Shown here in pieces: positions 42,703 to 51,845 of a DNA stretch of 64,000 nucleotides (its first letter is position 1; every line of letters begins with the position of its first letter). Location of the stretch: NCBI RefSeq assembly GCF_900112525.1, contig NZ_FOMD01000004.1, positions 1 through 64,000 on the forward strand, read 5' to 3'. Position numbers and translations under genes: made by a program. Below the pieces are notes generated by a model. That model saw only the letters and a program-made list of their open reading frames with translations. It was not told the origin of the DNA and did no database searches. This DNA is from Klenkia taihuensis (lineage in GTDB: Bacteria > Actinomycetota > Actinomycetes > Mycobacteriales > Geodermatophilaceae).

Positions 42703-43683
42703 TCAGTCCTCCTGGCGGGGGTCCACGACCAGCCGGACGACGCAGCCGTCGCCGTCGGCCAACGGGGCGGTGGTCATCCGGTCCACCGCGCGGCGGGCCA
42801 GCCACAGGCCCATCCCGCCCACGGACAGGTCGTCGCCGTGCGCCGGGCCGTAGCCGGCCAGCGGCTCGTCGAAGCCGTGGCCGCGGTCGGCCACCGCGCA
42901 CAGCACCCGCTGCTCGGTGACCCACAGGCGCACGTCGACCGGCGGGACGCCGTGCTCGGCGGCGTTGGCCACCACCTCGTCGATGGCCAGCACCAGGTCC
43001 TCGGCCTCGTCGGGGTCCAGCGGCCCGTCGGACAGGCTGGCGGTGAGCTCGCGGCGCAGCTGGCGCAGGCTGCCGACGTCCTCGACCTCGAGGGTCGGGG
43101 GCGTGGCCTCCAGCGGGTCGGGGCCCGGCGCCGACCACAGCGACCGCAGCACCTCCGCCGGGTCCTTGCGACCGGGGTTGGGCACCACGCCGTCGGCGGT
43201 CAGGGACCACGGGTGGCAGGACAGGGCCCGGTCGGTGTCGGCGCCGAGGTGGCCGGGGTCGACCACGCAGTAGTGCGCCACCGAGCGGCCGGCGAGCACG
43301 TGGTTGAGCAGCGCCTCGGTCTGCAACCACGCCGGGACGCCGAGGGAGGTGCGGCCGCTGTCGGTGACCAGGTGCAGCCGGGTGCCGTCGGTCGTCAGCT
43401 TGTCGACCAGCGATGTGTGGCCCGCGATGGCGTCGGGCGCCCGGCCGCCGAGCTCGTCGGGGTCCACGACGTGCACCGCGTCGGCGCCCAGCCGGTCCAG
43501 CAGCGGGGCGCGCAGGTCGGGGGCGCAGGCGAGCACGACGGTGCCGCCGTCGGCGAGGGCCTGCTGCAGCCAGGGGGCGAGCAGCTCCGCCGACCGCGGG
43601 CCGGGCGTGCCGAGCTGGGCGACGTGCACGTAGCCGGCGGGGACGGCACCCGCCGACCCGAGGACGCCCGCTGTTTCCGACAC
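42703..43683 (-). CDS. MEDS-domain sensor with RsbW-like ATPase domain
   Basis: About 326 residues. The N-terminal part resembles the MEDS (DcmR-sensory) domain: YVHVAQLGTPGPRSAELLAP, TVVLACAPDLRAPLL, LHLVTDSGRTSLGVPAWLQT, followed by an HATPase_c module (N box VLAIDEVVANAAEHG, G1 AVADRGHGFDEPL, G2 VGGMGLWLARRAVDRM). There is no histidine phosphoacceptor domain, so it is likely an anti-sigma kinase of the RsbW type. Start GTG 43683 chosen; GTG 43737 is possible. Convergent with idi. Confidence 0.8.
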   Translation of the reverse strand: MSETAGVLGSAGAVPAGYVHVAQLGTPGPRSAELLAPWLQQALADGGTVVLACAPDLRAPLLDRLGADAVHVVDPDELGGRAPDAIAGHTSLVDKLTTDGTRLHLVTDSGRTSLGVPAWLQTEALLNHVLAGRSVAHYCVVDPGHLGADTDRALSCHPWSLTADGVVPNPGRKDPAEVLRSLWSAPGPDPLEATPPTLEVEDVGSLRQLRRELTASLSDGPLDPDEAEDLVLAIDEVVANAAEHGVPPVDVRLWVTEQRVLCAVADRGHGFDEPLAGYGPAHGDDLSVGGMGLWLARRAVDRMTTAPLADGDGCVVRLVVDPRQED

Positions 43684-43790
43684 GCCGCACTGGGTGCCCG
43701 GGATCCCCGGCCGCACACATGCTGCGTCCGATTGCACACCGCGGGGTCGGTGCGCGGTTCAGCCTCCCCGGCGGCGGGCAGCGGTCCGGG

Positions 43791-45611: not shown

Positions 45612-46643
45612 GTGCACGCGGAGGTGGTCGTCGTCGGGGCCGGGCAGGCCGGGTTGTCCGCGGCCTACCAGCTGCGCCGCGAGGGCGCCGACTTCGTCGT
45701 GCTGGACGCCGACGCGGCACCCGGCGGGGCGTGGCAGCACCGGTGGGCCTCGCTGCGGCTGGACCGCGCCAACGGCATCGCCGACCTGCCCGGGATGCCG
45801 CTGGCCGGCGACCCCGCCGAGCGCGCCTCGGTGGCCATGGCCCGCTACTTCGCCGACTACGAGCGGACCTTCGACCTGCCGGTGCGCCGCCCCGTGGCGG
45901 TCCGCCGGGTGACCCGCACGCACGACGGGTTCGCCCTGGCCACGACCGGGGGCACCTGGACCGCCCGCGGGCTGGTCAACGCCACCGGCACCTGGTCGCG
46001 GCCGTTCTGGCCCGCCTACCCGGGCCGGGAGACCTTCCGCGGCCGGCAGCTGCACGCCGCCCAGTTCACCGAGGCCGCCGACTTCGCCGGGCAGCACGTG
46101 CTCGTCGTCGGCGGTGGCATCTCCGCGCTGCAGCTGCTGGTGGAGGTCGCCGAGGTCACCCGGACCACCTGGGTCACCCGCCGGCCCCCGGTCTGGCGCA
46201 CCGAGGACTTCGACGCCGACGCCGGCCGGGCCGCCGTCGCGATGGTCGAGGAACGGGTCCGGGCGGGGTTGCCGCCGGGCAGCGTGGTGGGCGTGACCGG
46301 GCTGCCGGTCACCGAGGAGGTCCGCCGGGCCCGGGAGCGCGGCGTGCTCGACCGGCGGCCGGCGTTCGACCGGATGACGCCGACCGGGGTGGCGTGGGAC
46401 GACCCGGCCGGGGAGCTGGCCGTCGACGTGGTGCTGTGGGCGACCGGGTTCCGGGCGGCGCTGGACCACCTGGCACCGCTGCACCTGCGGGCCCCCGGCG
46501 GCGGGATCGTCGTCGAGGGCACCCGGGTGGTCGCCGAGCCCCGGCTGCACCTGGTCGGCTACGGCCCCTCGGCCAGCACGATCGGCGCCAACCGCGCCGG
46601 CCGGTCCGCGGTCCGGGAGCTGCTGGCCACCCTGCGCGGCTGA
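45612..46643 (+). CDS. Flavin-containing monooxygenase-like FAD/NAD(P) oxidoreductase
   Basis: 343 residues with two Rossmann loops: VVVVGAGQAGLSAAYQLRRE for FAD at the N terminus and VLVVGGGISALQLLVEVAE for NADPH in the middle, plus ATGTWSRPFWPAYPG and the late VVLWATGFRAALDHLAPL. It resembles the YhiN/CzcO-type single-component monooxygenases. No substrate is evident. Start GTG 45612. Confidence 0.85.
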   Translation: MHAEVVVVGAGQAGLSAAYQLRREGADFVVLDADAAPGGAWQHRWASLRLDRANGIADLPGMPLAGDPAERASVAMARYFADYERTFDLPVRRPVAVRRVTRTHDGFALATTGGTWTARGLVNATGTWSRPFWPAYPGRETFRGRQLHAAQFTEAADFAGQHVLVVGGGISALQLLVEVAEVTRTTWVTRRPPVWRTEDFDADAGRAAVAMVEERVRAGLPPGSVVGVTGLPVTEEVRRARERGVLDRRPAFDRMTPTGVAWDDPAGELAVDVVLWATGFRAALDHLAPLHLRAPGGGIVVEGTRVVAEPRLHLVGYGPSASTIGANRAGRSAVRELLATLRG

Positions 46644-46658
46644 CCCGACGGCCGGGCC

Positions 46659-49028
46659 TCAGCGGTCGGGTCGGGGCCGGTCCTGCGCGTGCAGCCGGAC
46701 GGCGACCAGCGCGACGTCGTCCTCGGCCCGCTCGGGCAGCAGCTCACCCAGCAGGGTGTCGGCGAGCTGCTCCACCGGACGGTCGGGCAGCCGGCCCAGC
46801 AGGCCCATCAGCACGTCGATGCCCTCGTCGAACACCTGGTCGCGGCGCTCGACGAGGCCGTCGGTGTAGAGCAGCACCGTCGACCCGCGCTCGAGCACGG
46901 CCTCGTGCTCGCGCCGGGGTGCACCCGGGTCCACGCCCAGCAGCAGGTCGGCCCGGCCGCCGCCCCCGAGCAGCCGGGTGCCGCCGTCCGCGGTCAGCAC
47001 GACCGGCGGCAGGTGACCGGCGTTGGACCAGACCAGCCGGGTCACCCCTTCGTCGAACTCGTCGGGGGTCTGCTCCAGCCGCGCCACCAGCACCGAGGCG
47101 ATGGCCTCCATGCGGAGGCCGTCGACCGCGGCGTCCAGCCGGCGCAGCACGTCGGCCGGGCCCAGGCCGCTGTCGAAGGCGATGCCGCGCAGCAGGCCGC
47201 GCAGCTGACCCATGACCGCGGCGGCCTCGGTGTCGTGGCCGACGACGTCGCCGATGACCAGCACCGTGGCGCCGTCGGGCTGCACGAACGCGTCGTACCA
47301 GTCACCGCCGACCTGGGCCTCGCGCGCGGCCGGCACGTAGCGCACCGCCATCTGCAGGTGGTCGGGCTGCGGCGGGTCGGACAGCATGCTGCGCTGCAGC
47401 GTCTCCGCGGCCCGGGCCACCCGGCGGGTGCGGGCGTAGAGCGCCTCGAGCAGGTTGGTGCGCAGCTCGGTGGCCTCGGCGACCTCGGCCGCCGTCCACG
47501 GCTCGGACCGGCCGTGCACCGTCTCCGACCACCGGTCGAAGGACTGCCGCGGCGAGATGCGCACGCCGTCGCCCTCGGGGACGACGGTCGCCTGGTGGTG
47601 CGGGTCGCCGCCCCAGTCGATGGAGCGCACCTTCTCCTGGCGCAGCCACACCACGGACTGGCCCTCGGGCAGCGGCACGACGAGCGCACCGCAGGCCAGC
47701 TCCACCGGCACGTCCAGCTCGGGGGCGTCGGTCGGCAGGGACTCGGTGGACACCACGTCGCTGCGCCGGCCGGCCGCCCACTCGGCGACCTGGGCGGCGA
47801 GGGCCTCGGGCACCGGCGCGCCGCGGACGGCGGCGTGCCCCTCCAGGTGCACCACCACGCTGTCGGCGGGCACCAGGTCGAGCAGGTCGGGGGTGCCCAG
47901 CAGCGACTCGGCCAGCGGCCGGTCCTGGTCGAGGGTGGCCGCGGTCAGCCAGGCCAGGGTCGAGCGGGCCCGCAGCGCGCGGCGGACCTCCTCCTCGGCG
48001 GCCCGGTCGACCAGCCGCAGCGACAGCGTCGAGCCCAGGAACTCGGCCGCGGCGCGGGTGGCGTAGGGCGGGGCGTGCGGTCCGGCGTAGTGGTGGCAGG
48101 CGATCAGGCCCCACAGCTTGTCCTCGCGCAGCAGCGAGATCGACATCGAGGCCGCCACGCCCATGTTGCCCAGGTACTCGACGTGGATGGGCGAGACGCT
48201 GCGCAGCGTGGAGTACGTCAGGTCCAGCGGGGCGCCGGTGGCCGGGTGGTCGACCGGCTGCAGCAGGGCGGGGGTGTAGGGCGCCTCGGAGATGAGGCGG
48301 ACCCAGTTCTTCTCGTACAGCGCCCGCGCCTGGGCGGGGATGTCCGACGCCGGGTAGTGCAGGCCGAGGAAGCTGGGCAGCCCGCCGTGCTGGGCCTCGG
48401 CGACGACCTCGCCGTTGTACTCGTCGTCGTAGCGGTAGAGCATCACCCGGTCGAAACCGGTCAGGTTGCGCACCGCGGTGACCGTGACGTCGTAGAGCTC
48501 CTGCAGGTCCGTGGCCCGGTTCAGCTCGGCGATGCTGCTGCGCACGGCCTGGTAGGTGTTCGGGAAGCTGAACGGCCGGGGGCCGAAGGCCGGCTCCAGC
48601 TCGACCACCAGCGAGCTCGCACCGCGGCGCTCGCCGTCGTCGAGGCGGCCGGGGCCGGACCCGCCGTGCACGATGCGGTGCAGGATCGCGTCGACCGGCA
48701 CCGGGGTGCCGTCGAGGTCCAGGGTGAGCTCGACCGGGTTGCGCTCGCGCAGGTCGCCGAACGCCGCCGCGCTGCGGGCCACGGCCTGCGCGGGCACGGT
48801 GCCGAGGACCTCGGCCAGCGGCCGGCCGAGCGCGCGCTCCCACGCCACCCCGACGACGTCGGCCAGGTTCTCCGACACCTGCTCCACGACCAGGTCGGGC
48901 TCGCTGACCGAGATCAGCACGCCGCGGGGCTGGATGCTGCCCGGGACGTGGATGGGCTCGCGCGCGCAGTTGGTCAGGTCCACCGGCGTACCGGGGGCCA
49001 GCCACTCCACGGGCTGGGTGTCGGTCAC
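46659..49028 (-). CDS. bphP: Bacteriophytochrome with SpoIIE-type PP2C phosphatase output
   Basis: 789 residues. Order: PAS with chromophore Cys21 in DLTNCAREPIHVPGSIQPRG; GAF with LHYPASDIPAQARALYEKNW and RSVSPIHVEYLGNMGVAASM; PHY with both tongue motifs (RSIDWGGDP, ISPRQSFDRW); C-terminal SpoIIE/PP2C phosphatase ([58 protein letters not shown]). The usual histidine kinase is absent. It should change phosphatase activity with red/far-red light. GTG 49028 overlaps the heme oxygenase stop. Confidence 0.93.
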   Translation of the reverse strand: MTDTQPVEWLAPGTPVDLTNCAREPIHVPGSIQPRGVLISVSEPDLVVEQVSENLADVVGVAWERALGRPLAEVLGTVPAQAVARSAAAFGDLRERNPVELTLDLDGTPVPVDAILHRIVHGGSGPGRLDDGERRGASSLVVELEPAFGPRPFSFPNTYQAVRSSIAELNRATDLQELYDVTVTAVRNLTGFDRVMLYRYDDEYNGEVVAEAQHGGLPSFLGLHYPASDIPAQARALYEKNWVRLISEAPYTPALLQPVDHPATGAPLDLTYSTLRSVSPIHVEYLGNMGVAASMSISLLREDKLWGLIACHHYAGPHAPPYATRAAAEFLGSTLSLRLVDRAAEEEVRRALRARSTLAWLTAATLDQDRPLAESLLGTPDLLDLVPADSVVVHLEGHAAVRGAPVPEALAAQVAEWAAGRRSDVVSTESLPTDAPELDVPVELACGALVVPLPEGQSVVWLRQEKVRSIDWGGDPHHQATVVPEGDGVRISPRQSFDRWSETVHGRSEPWTAAEVAEATELRTNLLEALYARTRRVARAAETLQRSMLSDPPQPDHLQMAVRYVPAAREAQVGGDWYDAFVQPDGATVLVIGDVVGHDTEAAAVMGQLRGLLRGIAFDSGLGPADVLRRLDAAVDGLRMEAIASVLVARLEQTPDEFDEGVTRLVWSNAGHLPPVVLTADGGTRLLGGGGRADLLLGVDPGAPRREHEAVLERGSTVLLYTDGLVERRDQVFDEGIDVLMGLLGRLPDRPVEQLADTLLGELLPERAEDDVALVAVRLHAQDRPRPDR

Positions 49029-49690
49029 GCAGCAGCACCTCGACGTCGGGTCGTGGGTTCGGAGGGCGGCGACGCAGGCTGCTCGACGTCGGCGCACCAC
49101 TGGGCCATCAGGACGAAGGTACGGCGTGCCGCCCCGACCACCGCGTCGGCGTCACCCCCGCGGGTCACGTGCTCGCGGGTGGCCCGCCGGAACGCGGCCC
49201 ACCGCGCGCCGGTGGCCTCGCCGTACGGGCTGAAGGCCCGGACCGTCGCGACACCGGCCAGCGCGGGCAGCGCGGCCAGGTGGCGGTCGATGAACTGCCC
49301 GCCCAGGGTCGAGCCCTCGAGCACGTACATCGCACCCAGCGCCTCGTCGGTGGAGGCCGGTGCGGGCACCGCGGGCAGCGGGTCGGTCGTGGGGACGGCG
49401 TCCAGGGCGGTCAGGTCGGCGGCGAACAGGTGCGCCCGGCGCCGGGCGGACCAGTCCAGGCCCTCGGCGACCGCCGGGTGGTCGGCGGCCCAGGCGTCCA
49501 GGCCGGTCTCGGCGGCGACCCAGAACGCGTGCATCCGCTGCAGCACCGCGGCCAGGCGGGGGACGGTGAGGTCGGCGTCCATCAGGTCGAGGGTGTCCTC
49601 GAGCTGCTGGTGCTCGGCCGCGGTGGCCGTGCGCAGCGCCCGCATCACGTCGGGAGCGGACTGCTCGTCGGTACCGGCGTCCGTGCTCAT
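49025..49690 (-). CDS. bphO: Biliverdin-producing heme oxygenase (BphO)
   Basis: 221 residues of the bacterial heme oxygenase family: RALRTATAAEHQQLEDTLDL with the proximal His, LGAMYVLEGSTLGGQFIDRH with the distal-helix glycines, and AFSPYGEATGARWAAFRRAT. It converts heme to biliverdin, the chromophore of the phytochrome encoded immediately downstream. ATG 49690 overlaps the pucR-type stop (ATGA), and its own stop overlaps bphP: three genes in one coupled unit. Confidence 0.93.
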   Translation of the reverse strand: MSTDAGTDEQSAPDVMRALRTATAAEHQQLEDTLDLMDADLTVPRLAAVLQRMHAFWVAAETGLDAWAADHPAVAEGLDWSARRRAHLFAADLTALDAVPTTDPLPAVPAPASTDEALGAMYVLEGSTLGGQFIDRHLAALPALAGVATVRAFSPYGEATGARWAAFRRATREHVTRGGDADAVVGAARRTFVLMAQWCADVEQPASPPSEPTTRRRGAAA

Positions 49691-50823
49691 GAGGCCCACG
49701 ACCCTAGAGCACCCCGCCCGGGGGCGGCCGCCAGCCGGGCCGAGCGGACGGCCAGGTGCAGTGCCAGCCGGTCGCCGCCGTCGGACAGGTCCAGGCCGGT
49801 GAGCTCGGCGATCCGGCCGAGCCGGTAGTACAGCGTCTGCCGGTGCACCACGAGCTCGGCGGCGGCCCGCTGCGGCGAGGCGGCCCGGTCCAGCCACACC
49901 TCGGCGGTGCGGGTGAGCACGGGGTCGGCGAGCAGGGCCGCGAAGGCCGGGTCCGGGCCGTCGAGCCGGACCACCTGGCGCCAGGCGCCGAGCTCGGCCC
50001 AGGACGCGACCGGGGCCAGCGCCGGGTCGACCGCGGCCACCCGGGCGGCGTCGGAGGCCTCGGACCACTGCCGCCGCAGCTCGCCGCACCCGGTGCGGGC
50101 GGCGGCCACGCCGGCGGTGCTCCCGGCGGGCAGCCGCTGCAGGGCCGCGGCGGACAGCGCGACCGCCGGGCGGGTGTCGCCGCGGTGCGGCAGGGGGACC
50201 AGGGCGGCCACCGCATCGCCCACGACCGCGGCGACCGCGCCGGCGCCGGGCGCGGCCCAGCCGGCGGGCAGGCCGGGGTCGGCCGGGTGCAGCGCGACCA
50301 GGGCGACCGGGGTGCGCGCGCCCAGCGCGGCGCCCAGCCGGCCGGCGGCGGTGTCGTCCCCGGCGAGCGCGGCGGCGAGGTCCGCGGACGGGTCGCCGGC
50401 GGCCGGCCGGGTGGCCAGCAGCGCACCGGCCCGGTCGGCCAGCGCGACGGCCGCGGCCAGGCCCGGCGGGTCGGCGGCGTCGAGGTCGGTGCGGCCCTCG
50501 TCCAGCAGCCACAGCCAGCCGTGCAACCGGCCGCGGTGGCGCACCGGCAGGCACAGCCGGGTCAGGATCCCGGCCGCCGGGTCGGCCGGGGTGCGCAGCG
50601 GGGCGGTGGCCCGGTCGATGCCGAAGTCGGTGAACCAGCGGCGGGTCGCCGCGGGGGAGCCCCGGGTCAGGATCGAGCGGGTGCGCACGGCGTCCAGGCC
50701 GGTCAGCGCGCCCTCGCCCTGGGCGCAGAAGGCCAGCAGGGTGAAGTCCGGGTCCTCCAGGGTCGCGGGCGCGCCGAGCAGCCGGGACACCTCGTCCACG
50801 ATGTCCTGCAGGTCGTCGCGCAC
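49687..50823 (-). CDS. PucR-family transcriptional regulator (PruR-like)
   Basis: 378 residues. The C-terminal helix-turn-helix AAAELVVHRQTLYYRLGRIA, ELTGLDLSDGGDRLALHLAV is typical of the PucR/CdaR HTH_30 type; the N-terminal half is a sensory region. GTG 50823 lies six bases after TACGAT, a leaderless promoter. It is divergent from putB-pruA, as PruR regulators of proline catabolism are in mycobacteria and relatives, yet it is also the first gene of the bphO-bphP unit. Confidence 0.87.
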   Translation of the reverse strand: MRDDLQDIVDEVSRLLGAPATLEDPDFTLLAFCAQGEGALTGLDAVRTRSILTRGSPAATRRWFTDFGIDRATAPLRTPADPAAGILTRLCLPVRHRGRLHGWLWLLDEGRTDLDAADPPGLAAAVALADRAGALLATRPAAGDPSADLAAALAGDDTAAGRLGAALGARTPVALVALHPADPGLPAGWAAPGAGAVAAVVGDAVAALVPLPHRGDTRPAVALSAAALQRLPAGSTAGVAAARTGCGELRRQWSEASDAARVAAVDPALAPVASWAELGAWRQVVRLDGPDPAFAALLADPVLTRTAEVWLDRAASPQRAAAELVVHRQTLYYRLGRIAELTGLDLSDGGDRLALHLAVRSARLAAAPGRGALGSWAS

Positions 50824-50829
50824 CAGACG

Positions 50830-50835
50830 ATCGTA
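50830..50835 (-). promoter_or_regulatory. -10 box (TACGAT) for the pucR-bphO-bphP operon
   Basis: Six bases before the GTG on the minus strand; leaderless. Confidence 0.6.
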
Positions 50836-50883
50836 CGAACGAGTCCCGACAGCTGTCCGTGGTGACGGCGACGACCTCACTCC

Positions 50884-50889
50884 TAGGTT
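50884..50889 (+). promoter_or_regulatory. -10 box (TAGGTT) for putB-pruA
   Basis: Places the transcript start near 50896-50897, about 22 bases before the GTG and upstream of the GGAGG ribosome site, so this mRNA is leadered. Confidence 0.45.
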
Positions 50890-50918
50890 GCAGTCACCCA
50901 CTGCTGCTGGAGGTCCCC

Positions 50919-51845
50919 GTGCTCGGTCAGGCCCTGCTCGTCGCGTCCCGCCGCCCCGGCCTGCGCCGCGCCGTCGTCGGCACCCCGGTCACCCGCCGGG
51001 TGGTCGACCGGTTCGTCGCGGGGGAGCAGCTGCCCGACGCGCTGGCCGCCGTCCGGTCGCTGCAGGCCGACGGGGTCGCCGTCACCCTGGACCACCTGGG
51101 CGAGGACATCACCACCCGCGCCGAGGCCGTCGCCTCCCGCGACGCCTACCTCGCGCTGCTCGACGGCCTGGCGCCGCTGCAGCTGGGGCCGGCCGCCGAG
51201 GTGTCGGTCAAGCTGTCGGCCTTCGGCCAGGCGCTGCCCGGCGGGCACGACCTGGCCCTCGAGCTGGTCCGCCCGGTCGCCGAGGCCGCCACGGCGCTGG
51301 GCACCACGGTCACCCTGGACATGGAGGACCACACCACGGTCGACTCCACGCTCGCCGTCCTGGCCGAGCTGCGCCGCGACCACCCGGGCACCGGCGCGGT
51401 GCTGCAGTCGGCGCTGCACCGCACCGAGGCCGACGCGGCCGACCTGGCCGTCGCCGGGTCCCGGGTGCGGCTGGTCAAGGGTGCCTACGCCGAGCCCCGC
51501 ACCGTCGCCTTCACCGACAAGGCCGAGGTGGACGCCGCCTACCTCCGCTGCCTGGACGTGCTGTTCCGCGGCGCGGGCTACCCGATGGCCGGCACGCACG
51601 ACCCCGCGATGATCGCCCGGGTGCTGGAGCTGGTCCGCGAGACGGGCCGGGCGGCCGACAGCTACGAGTTCCAGCTGCTCTACGGCATCCGCACCGGCGA
51701 GCAGCAGCGGCTGGCCCGCGAGGGGCACACCGTGCGCGCCTACGTGCCCTACGGCGCCGACTGGTACGGCTACTTCATGCGCCGCCTGGCCGAGCGCCCG
51801 GCCAACCTGCAGTTCTTCCTCCGCTCCCTCGTCACCACCAGCTAA
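50919..51845 (+). CDS. putB: Proline dehydrogenase (monofunctional)
   Basis: Flavoenzyme oxidising proline to pyrroline-5-carboxylate. 308 residues: GVAVTLDHLGEDITTRAEAV, VSVKLSAFGQALPGG, TLDMEDHTTVDSTLAVL, RLVKGAYAEPRTVAF, GTHDPAMIARVLEL, FQLLYGIRTGEQ and YGADWYGYFMRRLAERPANL are all PRODH motifs. GTG 50919 has GGAGG five bases upstream and gives a typical N terminus; an earlier GTG at 50859 lacks this. Followed by pruA 13 bases on. Confidence 0.94.
   Translation: MLGQALLVASRRPGLRRAVVGTPVTRRVVDRFVAGEQLPDALAAVRSLQADGVAVTLDHLGEDITTRAEAVASRDAYLALLDGLAPLQLGPAAEVSVKLSAFGQALPGGHDLALELVRPVAEAATALGTTVTLDMEDHTTVDSTLAVLAELRRDHPGTGAVLQSALHRTEADAADLAVAGSRVRLVKGAYAEPRTVAFTDKAEVDAAYLRCLDVLFRGAGYPMAGTHDPAMIARVLELVRETGRAADSYEFQLLYGIRTGEQQRLAREGHTVRAYVPYGADWYGYFMRRLAERPANLQFFLRSLVTTS

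Follow-up and report, generated by a model that had tools for sequence, protein, structure and literature searches.

Is a light sensor that is encoded beside the genes for proline breakdown wired to these genes, or is it only their neighbour? This question is raised by a 64,000-nucleotide stretch of Klenkia taihuensis DNA (contig NZ_FOMD01000004.1, positions 1 to 64,000; hereafter the window), in which pucR for a PucR-type transcription regulator is followed by bphO for heme oxygenase and bphP for a bacteriophytochrome with a phosphatase domain, and is flanked on the other side by putB-pruA for proline dehydrogenase and L-glutamate gamma-semialdehyde dehydrogenase. The initial annotation took pucR, bphO and bphP as one coupled operon, and suggested that proline catabolism or stress control is tied to light. 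Its description of the junctions was confirmed from the window coordinates: ATGA is common to the pucR stop and the bphO start codon, and GTGA is common to the bphO stop and the bphP start codon. The divergent orientation of pucR-bphO-bphP and putB-pruA was likewise confirmed, from the coordinates together with Pfam and NCBIfam domains. The interval 49025-50823 holds pucR and bphO only, and bphP falls beyond it. No reverse-strand gene is present between pucR and bphO in the window, and scanning of positions 46500-51100 gave neither a match to the sigma-70 promoter consensus nor a terminator-like site. After comparison of this locus within the family and beyond, we consider it probable that two adjacent modules are present, an old PucR-put module and, beside it, a bphO-bphP light module with a promoter of its own, and that the two are loosely joined in the genus of the window.

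PucR and its predicted operators at putB

The family is Geodermatophilaceae throughout. By single-protein searches over its 112 genomes, 100 loci from 95 genomes were taken, making 96 genomes with the window; the other 16 (G061, G067-G075, G082 and G094-G098), mostly fragmented drafts, were left out, and nine of these, from g6-g8, gave no bphO or bphP match in the single-protein searches. The presence of a gene at the locus was called by BLAST identity thresholds. Genera are coded as g1, to which the window belongs, and g2-g12.

PucR carries the C-terminal helix-turn-helix domain HTH_30 (PF13556, 2.9e-20) at residues 303-360. In the gap between pucR and putB are two repeats, both with AC[AG]NN[CT]GT as core; the second (site 2) is located just upstream of the putB promoter. 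Site 2 is the sole ACANNTGT in the window, for which 4.1 were expected, and the window search for the tandem operator pattern found one site (0.06 expected). The same elements recur in the family. The strict ACANNTGT was detected in 68 of 77 pucR loci (shuffle mean 1.7, maximum 4), and at least two relaxed sites at less than 200 bp from putB in 74 of 77 (shuffle mean 1.75, maximum 5); for the three loci below two (G015, G024 and G104), the sequence shows a second site that departs from the pattern by one base. Among 72 scored loci, the spacing between the two sites was 22/23 bp in 17, 32/33 bp in 51 and other in 4, the two major classes being near two and three helical turns, and in 70 the putB -10 element is located 30-31 bp downstream of the centre of site 2. 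This distance would place site 2 near -42 for the usual start. Activators are often located near -42. We propose that PucR binds the two inverted repeats, whether 22/23 or 32/33 bp apart, and that from the site beside the putB promoter it would activate putB-pruA when proline or a derivative is available; pucR itself would also be controlled, through the site next to its start codon.

The family includes 11 taken genomes that carry putB and lack pucR. On the PutB+PruA tree (89 rows), made by a quick method and with several open forks, the absence of pucR corresponds to 9 changes, at least 7 of them on starred branches. The strict ACANNTGT is retained in none of the 11 pucR-less loci. In the draft genome G034 (L091), counted as pucR-positive in the tree, pucR looks broken and both predicted operators are intact, indicating either a recent loss or an assembly error. 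The putB -10-like element was found in all 12 rows, namely the 11 pucR-less loci and G034. As judged from 95 genomes, pucR is associated with putB (both 77, putB only 12, neither 6, pucR only 0; p = 2e-5) and bphO with bphP (p = 0.009), and no association was detected between bphP and putB (Fisher p = 1.0) or between bphP and pucR (p = 0.32); these p-values are rough on account of shared ancestry, and a single deletion could take pucR and put together. Thus, pucR tracks putB and not bphP.

The PucR-put pair also occurs beyond the family. When named genomes were scanned with the PucR protein, the best 79 loci of 206 relatives comprised 23 family loci and 56 from other families, mostly Streptomyces. 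In all of these 56 loci, chosen by the PucR protein alone, putB is divergent from the regulator; a strict site is present in 55 gaps (shuffle mean 1.3, maximum 5) and two relaxed sites in 52 (shuffle mean 0.7, maximum 4). Neither a bphO match nor a bphP match of at least 40% was detected within the 7-13 kb around each of them; one, L300, gave a 36% partial bphP match. A further 18 loci were sampled from the order outside Geodermatophilaceae: putB is divergent in 3 of them (L201, L202 and L212), with 1, 2 and 1 relaxed sites, respectively, and with no bph, and the remaining 15, L216 among them, gave no putB match. From the phytochrome side, BphP was searched (E up to 1e-90) against an even sample of 397 genomes of the order, and matched 14 non-family genomes: put genes were found in none of 12 BphP-matched stretches from 11 of them, and in the other 3 the match is confined to the SpoIIE part. 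The heme oxygenase search over 394 genomes drawn evenly from the class matched 15 non-family genomes, and no put genes were found in the 18-20 kb examined for 9 of them. Since the non-family loci keep putB and the sites without bph, the PucR-put module is apparently widespread and of long standing, with the phytochrome pair as a neighbour that apparently is seen only in this family. The role of put-gene regulator, which the initial annotation had assigned to PucR from known relatives, is backed by the predicted operators, by their loss together with pucR and by the conservation in other families. From these sequence comparisons, PucR is very probably the local activator of the put genes.

The bphO-bphP pair and its promoter-like element

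BphO matches Heme_oxygenase PF01126 with 31.9 bits (cut-off 23), and bphO and bphP are the sole PF01126 match and the sole PHY-domain match, respectively, in the genome of the window. His27 of BphO, which we take to be the proximal His, was found in all 84 loci; the EGS.LGG motif, presumably of the G-rich distal helix, is nearly invariant. BphP consists of PAS_2, GAF, PHY and SpoIIE (PF07228, 4.1e-39) domains. Cys21, presumably the chromophore residue, the PASD of PASDIP, His282 and the tongue WGG are invariant in all 76 BphPs (the Ile of PASDIP is Val in 5), and so are Asp576, 594, 723, 770 and 771 of the PP2C motif, assumed to bind metal. BphP thus has the sequence features of a bacteriophytochrome, and biliverdin binding and photoconversion are predicted: BphO would make biliverdin, BphP would bind it, and red/far-red light would switch the SpoIIE phosphatase. 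In most genera, g1 and g5 excepted, a small conserved gene (about 80-100 aa; L021:6094-6333, oriented, in G018) is convergent with bphP.

Six g9 genomes lack bphO at the locus. A dead phytochrome in these relatives was considered and is not supported: all six carry another PF01126 protein elsewhere (193-199 bits; L219-L224), and their bphP is of full length and encodes Cys21, pointing to a sensor that is still functional.

As to the target of the phosphatase, Rv1364c (PDB 3ke6) was the only solved match of the isolated BphP phosphatase domain (8.1e-18). No STAS gene is present among the scanned neighbours of bphP in the window. An RsbW-like MEDS-HATPase_c_2 gene is located 2.9 kb downstream of bphP on the same strand, past three plus-strand genes, and is found near bphP in 26 of 27 g1, g5 and g9 loci and in 0 of 51 loci of other genera; its product is a possible partner of the phosphatase, encoded outside the operon. 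A second phytochrome-SpoIIE protein of G018 (BphP2, L227:1942-5012), 43% identical to BphP, is encoded beside a divergent HATPase_c_2 gene and a STAS gene. Since BphP2 adjoins such genes and the MEDS-HATPase_c_2 gene is near bphP, a role of the BphP phosphatase in sigma-factor partner switching is probable, its most likely substrate being a STAS anti-anti-sigma factor. Paralogues of BphP with 41-45% identity are listed in many family genomes and in none of the own genus. The genome of the window encodes on contig C5 (L226:3181-5250) a 689-aa PAS-GAF-SpoIIE protein with a phosphatase domain like that of BphP, including GDVVGHD.

A conserved -10-like element, GTSACCTASNCTCG, was noticed by eye in many g2-g4 loci, about 7-11 nt before the likely bphO ATG. 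When a matrix was trained on 17 of 23 g2 loci and the threshold was set at 9 bits, 46 of 61 held-out loci contained a match (g3 10/11, g4 21/24, g9 11/12, g11 3/3 and g12 1/1) vs 1 of 364 coding windows. The element is present also in genomes without pucR. We interpret the element as a putative -10 of a leaderless-type promoter, located at the 3' end of pucR or just after it, from which the bphO-bphP operon would be run. A PucR operator at bphO was also sought and rejected, because its 13 matches in 84 loci are within the shuffle range (mean 6.7, maximum 14), and 7 of the 13 are made up of the -10 element's own letters. In six g4 genomes (G041, G042, G044, G047, G048 and G050), pucR and bphO are separated by two genes, one of them on the reverse strand; in the pucR-less G058, this gene pair lies between putB and bphO. 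A simple single operon is therefore excluded in these six genomes by the reverse-strand gene. The intervening genes of G042 encode a TetR_N protein and a protein with a weak DUF2867 match; this pair of a TetR-type gene and a reverse-strand gene occurs in a g4 subgroup (L044:8744-9853 and like loci).

Features of the pucR-bph-put locus in the window (functions and elements predicted from sequence)
Feature	Position	Strand	Remarks
MEDS-HATPase_c_2 gene, RsbW-like anti-sigma kinase type	42703-43716	minus	HATPase_c_2 1.4e-18; MEDS 3.2e-5, below cut-off
bphP, PAS-GAF-PHY-SpoIIE bacteriophytochrome, 789 aa	49028 (GTG 49028-49026) to 46659	minus	Pfam; predicted light-sensing PP2C-type phosphatase
bphO, heme oxygenase, 221 aa	49690 (ATG 49690-49688) to 49025 (TGA 49027-49025)	minus	PF01126; predicted biliverdin maker
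Predicted bphO -10 element, TAGGGT	49701-49706	minus	10 nt upstream of bphO ATG, within pucR 3' end; family form GTSACCTASNCTCG
pucR-type regulator gene, 378 aa, GTG start	50823 (GTG) to TGA 49689-49687	minus	HTH_30; predicted to activate the adjacent putB-pruA
Predicted PucR operator site 1, ACGATCGT core	50827-50834		Conserved tandem site; adjoins pucR start codon
Predicted PucR operator site 2, ACAGCTGT core	50849-50856		Spacing to site 1, 22 bp; putB -10 about 31 bp downstream
Predicted putB -10 element, TAGGTT	50884-50889	plus	Conserved CCTAGCGT-type element, present in pucR-less loci as well
putB, proline dehydrogenase, 308 aa	50919-51845	plus	Pro_dh 1.2e-33
pruA, L-glutamate gamma-semialdehyde dehydrogenase, 541 aa	51859-53484	plus	Aldedh; NCBIfam TIGR01236 793.8 bits, cut-off 613.6

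Several points weigh against this reading of the locus as two modules. PucR gave no N-terminal PF07905 match at 0.01, only GAF_2 being found, below its cut-off. The relaxed operator pattern was set after viewing the family sequences, and only the non-family set of 56 loci is independent; the counts are not independent of one another, since the loci share ancestry. Relaxed sites occur without pucR, one each in G029 and G022 and two in G058, with stretches resembling pieces of pucR seen by eye in G022 and G058. The predicted operators may not be specific to put genes, because a PucR relative at L216 (G298) has two strict ACANNTGT sites upstream and no putB within 15 kb. At bphO, no -35 is evident, and the matrix detected the element in 0 of 8 loci of g1, 0 of 1 of g5 and 0 of 1 of g10. 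The own genus keeps only an CTAGGGTC-type form, placed inside the pucR coding sequence (6 loci) or containing the pucR stop (2 loci). This own-genus variant, CTAG[GT][GA]TC[GT], is found in 8 of 8 g1 loci, to which the pattern was fitted. Its letters are kept in different reading frames, since its TAG is the pucR stop in G079 and G083 and in the window it is read CTA-GGG inside pucR.

Gene order and the possible coupling of the two proposed modules

All five genes were found at the locus in 58 of the 96 genomes, on one stretch in 54 and split over two contigs in G081, G008, G031 and G104; bphP is merely a fragment in G059 and is broken in G104. The other genomes have partial loci, which lack bphP (9), only pucR (8) or only bphO (6), or which consist of bphO and bphP without put (5), pucR and put without bph (4), bphO and put (2), put alone (2) or bphO alone (1), and the locus of G030 is interrupted by the contig end. 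The recurrence of this gene order across the family is more than chance, and, because the five-gene order recurs, the condition that would refute the initial annotation, regulator and phytochrome in separate places, does not hold for most of Geodermatophilaceae.

Adjacency alone, however, was rejected as proof of function, because the flanking genes are syntenic too: bphP is preceded by a NUDIX gene in 68 loci, and pruA is followed by an MFS gene in 76. This order, and the finding that each part is independently missing in some genomes, could reflect no more than a region that is seldom rearranged, with modules having no regulatory contact. In contrast, the core gaps are tight (bphO-bphP less than 300 bp in 72 of 72 loci, pucR-putB less than 300 bp in 75 of 77), whereas the flank gaps vary by kilobases; bphP and the NUDIX gene are separated by a median of 3.0 kb, pruA and the MFS gene by a median of 0.6 kb. 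The wide exceptions within the core are the pucR-putB gap of G104 (about 2 kb), the putB-pruA gap of G060 (about 2 kb) and the pucR-bphO gap of seven g4 genomes (about 1.2-1.3 kb). We regard such frozen synteny as evenly poised between true and false; it is compatible with the presence of two modules.

The notion of one coupled operon was weakened by the comparison. The overlaps are real in the window, and 70 of 72 loci offer a bphP start codon that shares NTGA with the bphO stop. However, the in-frame ATGA overlap of pucR and bphO was found in only 10 of 66 loci with both genes (5 of g1, including the window, and 5 of g9), and is a local, lineage-specific trait; in addition, a promoter-like element of bphO itself and, in the six g4 genomes, a reverse-strand gene were found within the supposed single operon. 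The overlap at these 10 loci and the lack of a terminator-like site within 46500-51100 would fit transcription from pucR into bphO-bphP, by which proline availability would set the amount of BphO and BphP in the own genus and some g9 only. The promoter-like element just before bphO in all eight own-genus loci argues against this control, as does the lack of clear enrichment of the operator upstream of bphO. We hold it to be a tentative and rather doubtful possibility, which is also compatible with two modules. For the two-module arrangement itself, we propose that a part of the pucR transcript in the own genus probably continues into bphO-bphP, because the modules are squeezed together there, and that the supply of phytochrome is thereby loosely coupled to PucR. 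The logic of such an operon would run from PucR to phytochrome supply, and not from light to proline.

A stronger form of coupling is one circuit, in which pucR-bphO-bphP is a single unit and the BphP phosphatase adjusts putB-pruA directly or via a sigma-factor switch. The gene overlaps of the window and the neighbourhood kept across the family are in line with this circuit, and so are the frequent abutting of bphO and putB where pucR is absent (9 loci with the gap of less than 300 bp) and the retention of bphP in the six genomes with a heme oxygenase elsewhere in place of local bphO. On the other hand, bphP is kept without putB in 5 genomes and putB without local bphP in 17, with no association between the two; bphO has its own promoter-like element; the reverse-strand gene intervenes in the six g4 genomes; and the flanking gene order is likewise conserved. 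Moreover, nothing at the locus indicates how the BphP phosphatase would act on PucR. We therefore judge the single circuit improbable. The proposal that proline catabolism is tied to light was thus not borne out by the association and operator counts, and light control of proline catabolism is possible, without direct support here. In its most far-reaching version, light and proline status would be cross-wired in Geodermatophilaceae, PucR setting the phytochrome level and the light-switched phosphatase setting a sigma factor, perhaps via the MEDS-HATPase_c_2 protein, that tunes proline breakdown. This is a long shot; if true, it would let surface-dwelling cells spare proline as osmolyte in the sun and burn it in the dark.

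Significance and comparison with known systems

The two-module arrangement sets what is likely, namely PucR control of put and a self-contained bphO-bphP light unit, apart from the suggested coupling between light and proline. It offers a testable predicted operator for a PucR-type put regulator, apparently conserved from Geodermatophilaceae to Streptomyces, and the natural losses of pucR are ready-made controls. As judged from titles and the beginnings of abstracts, no literature on phytochromes beside put genes was found. Searches for bacteriophytochrome with Geodermatophilaceae, and for phytochrome with Blastococcus or Geodermatophilus, gave no open-licence PMC full text, which is weak evidence of absence; phytochromes seem to have been little studied in these bacteria of stone and desert.

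Each part of the locus has a counterpart elsewhere. The phosphatase domain of Rv1364c shares the GDVVGH and DGL motifs with BphP, and differs in that the match is without a phytochrome sensor. The bphO-bphP pairs of the actinobacterial families f32 and f43 share the order of heme oxygenase followed by a PAS-GAF-PHY-SpoIIE-type phytochrome, overlapping or nearly so in the examples examined, but have no put genes in the 18-20 kb stretches covered. For the regulator, PutR (PrcR) of Bacillus is described as a proline-responsive PucR-type activator of the proline catabolic genes putBCP with an inverted-repeat site (PMC7652997, PMC3858371). The likeness is one of role; PutR has a GGDEF-like domain, and in B. 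licheniformis putR follows putBCP. By layout, the closest studied case is GabR of Corynebacterium glutamicum, whose divergent target gabTDP has two inverted repeats directly before its -35; GabR binds both of them and is required for gabTDP expression (PMC7652997). GabR differs in that it serves GABA genes and has 21-bp repeats, no phytochrome genes being mentioned in the passages on it, and in that PucR binding at our locus is predicted; both regulators are of PucR type, have no GGDEF-like domain and face a divergent target across two inverted repeats.

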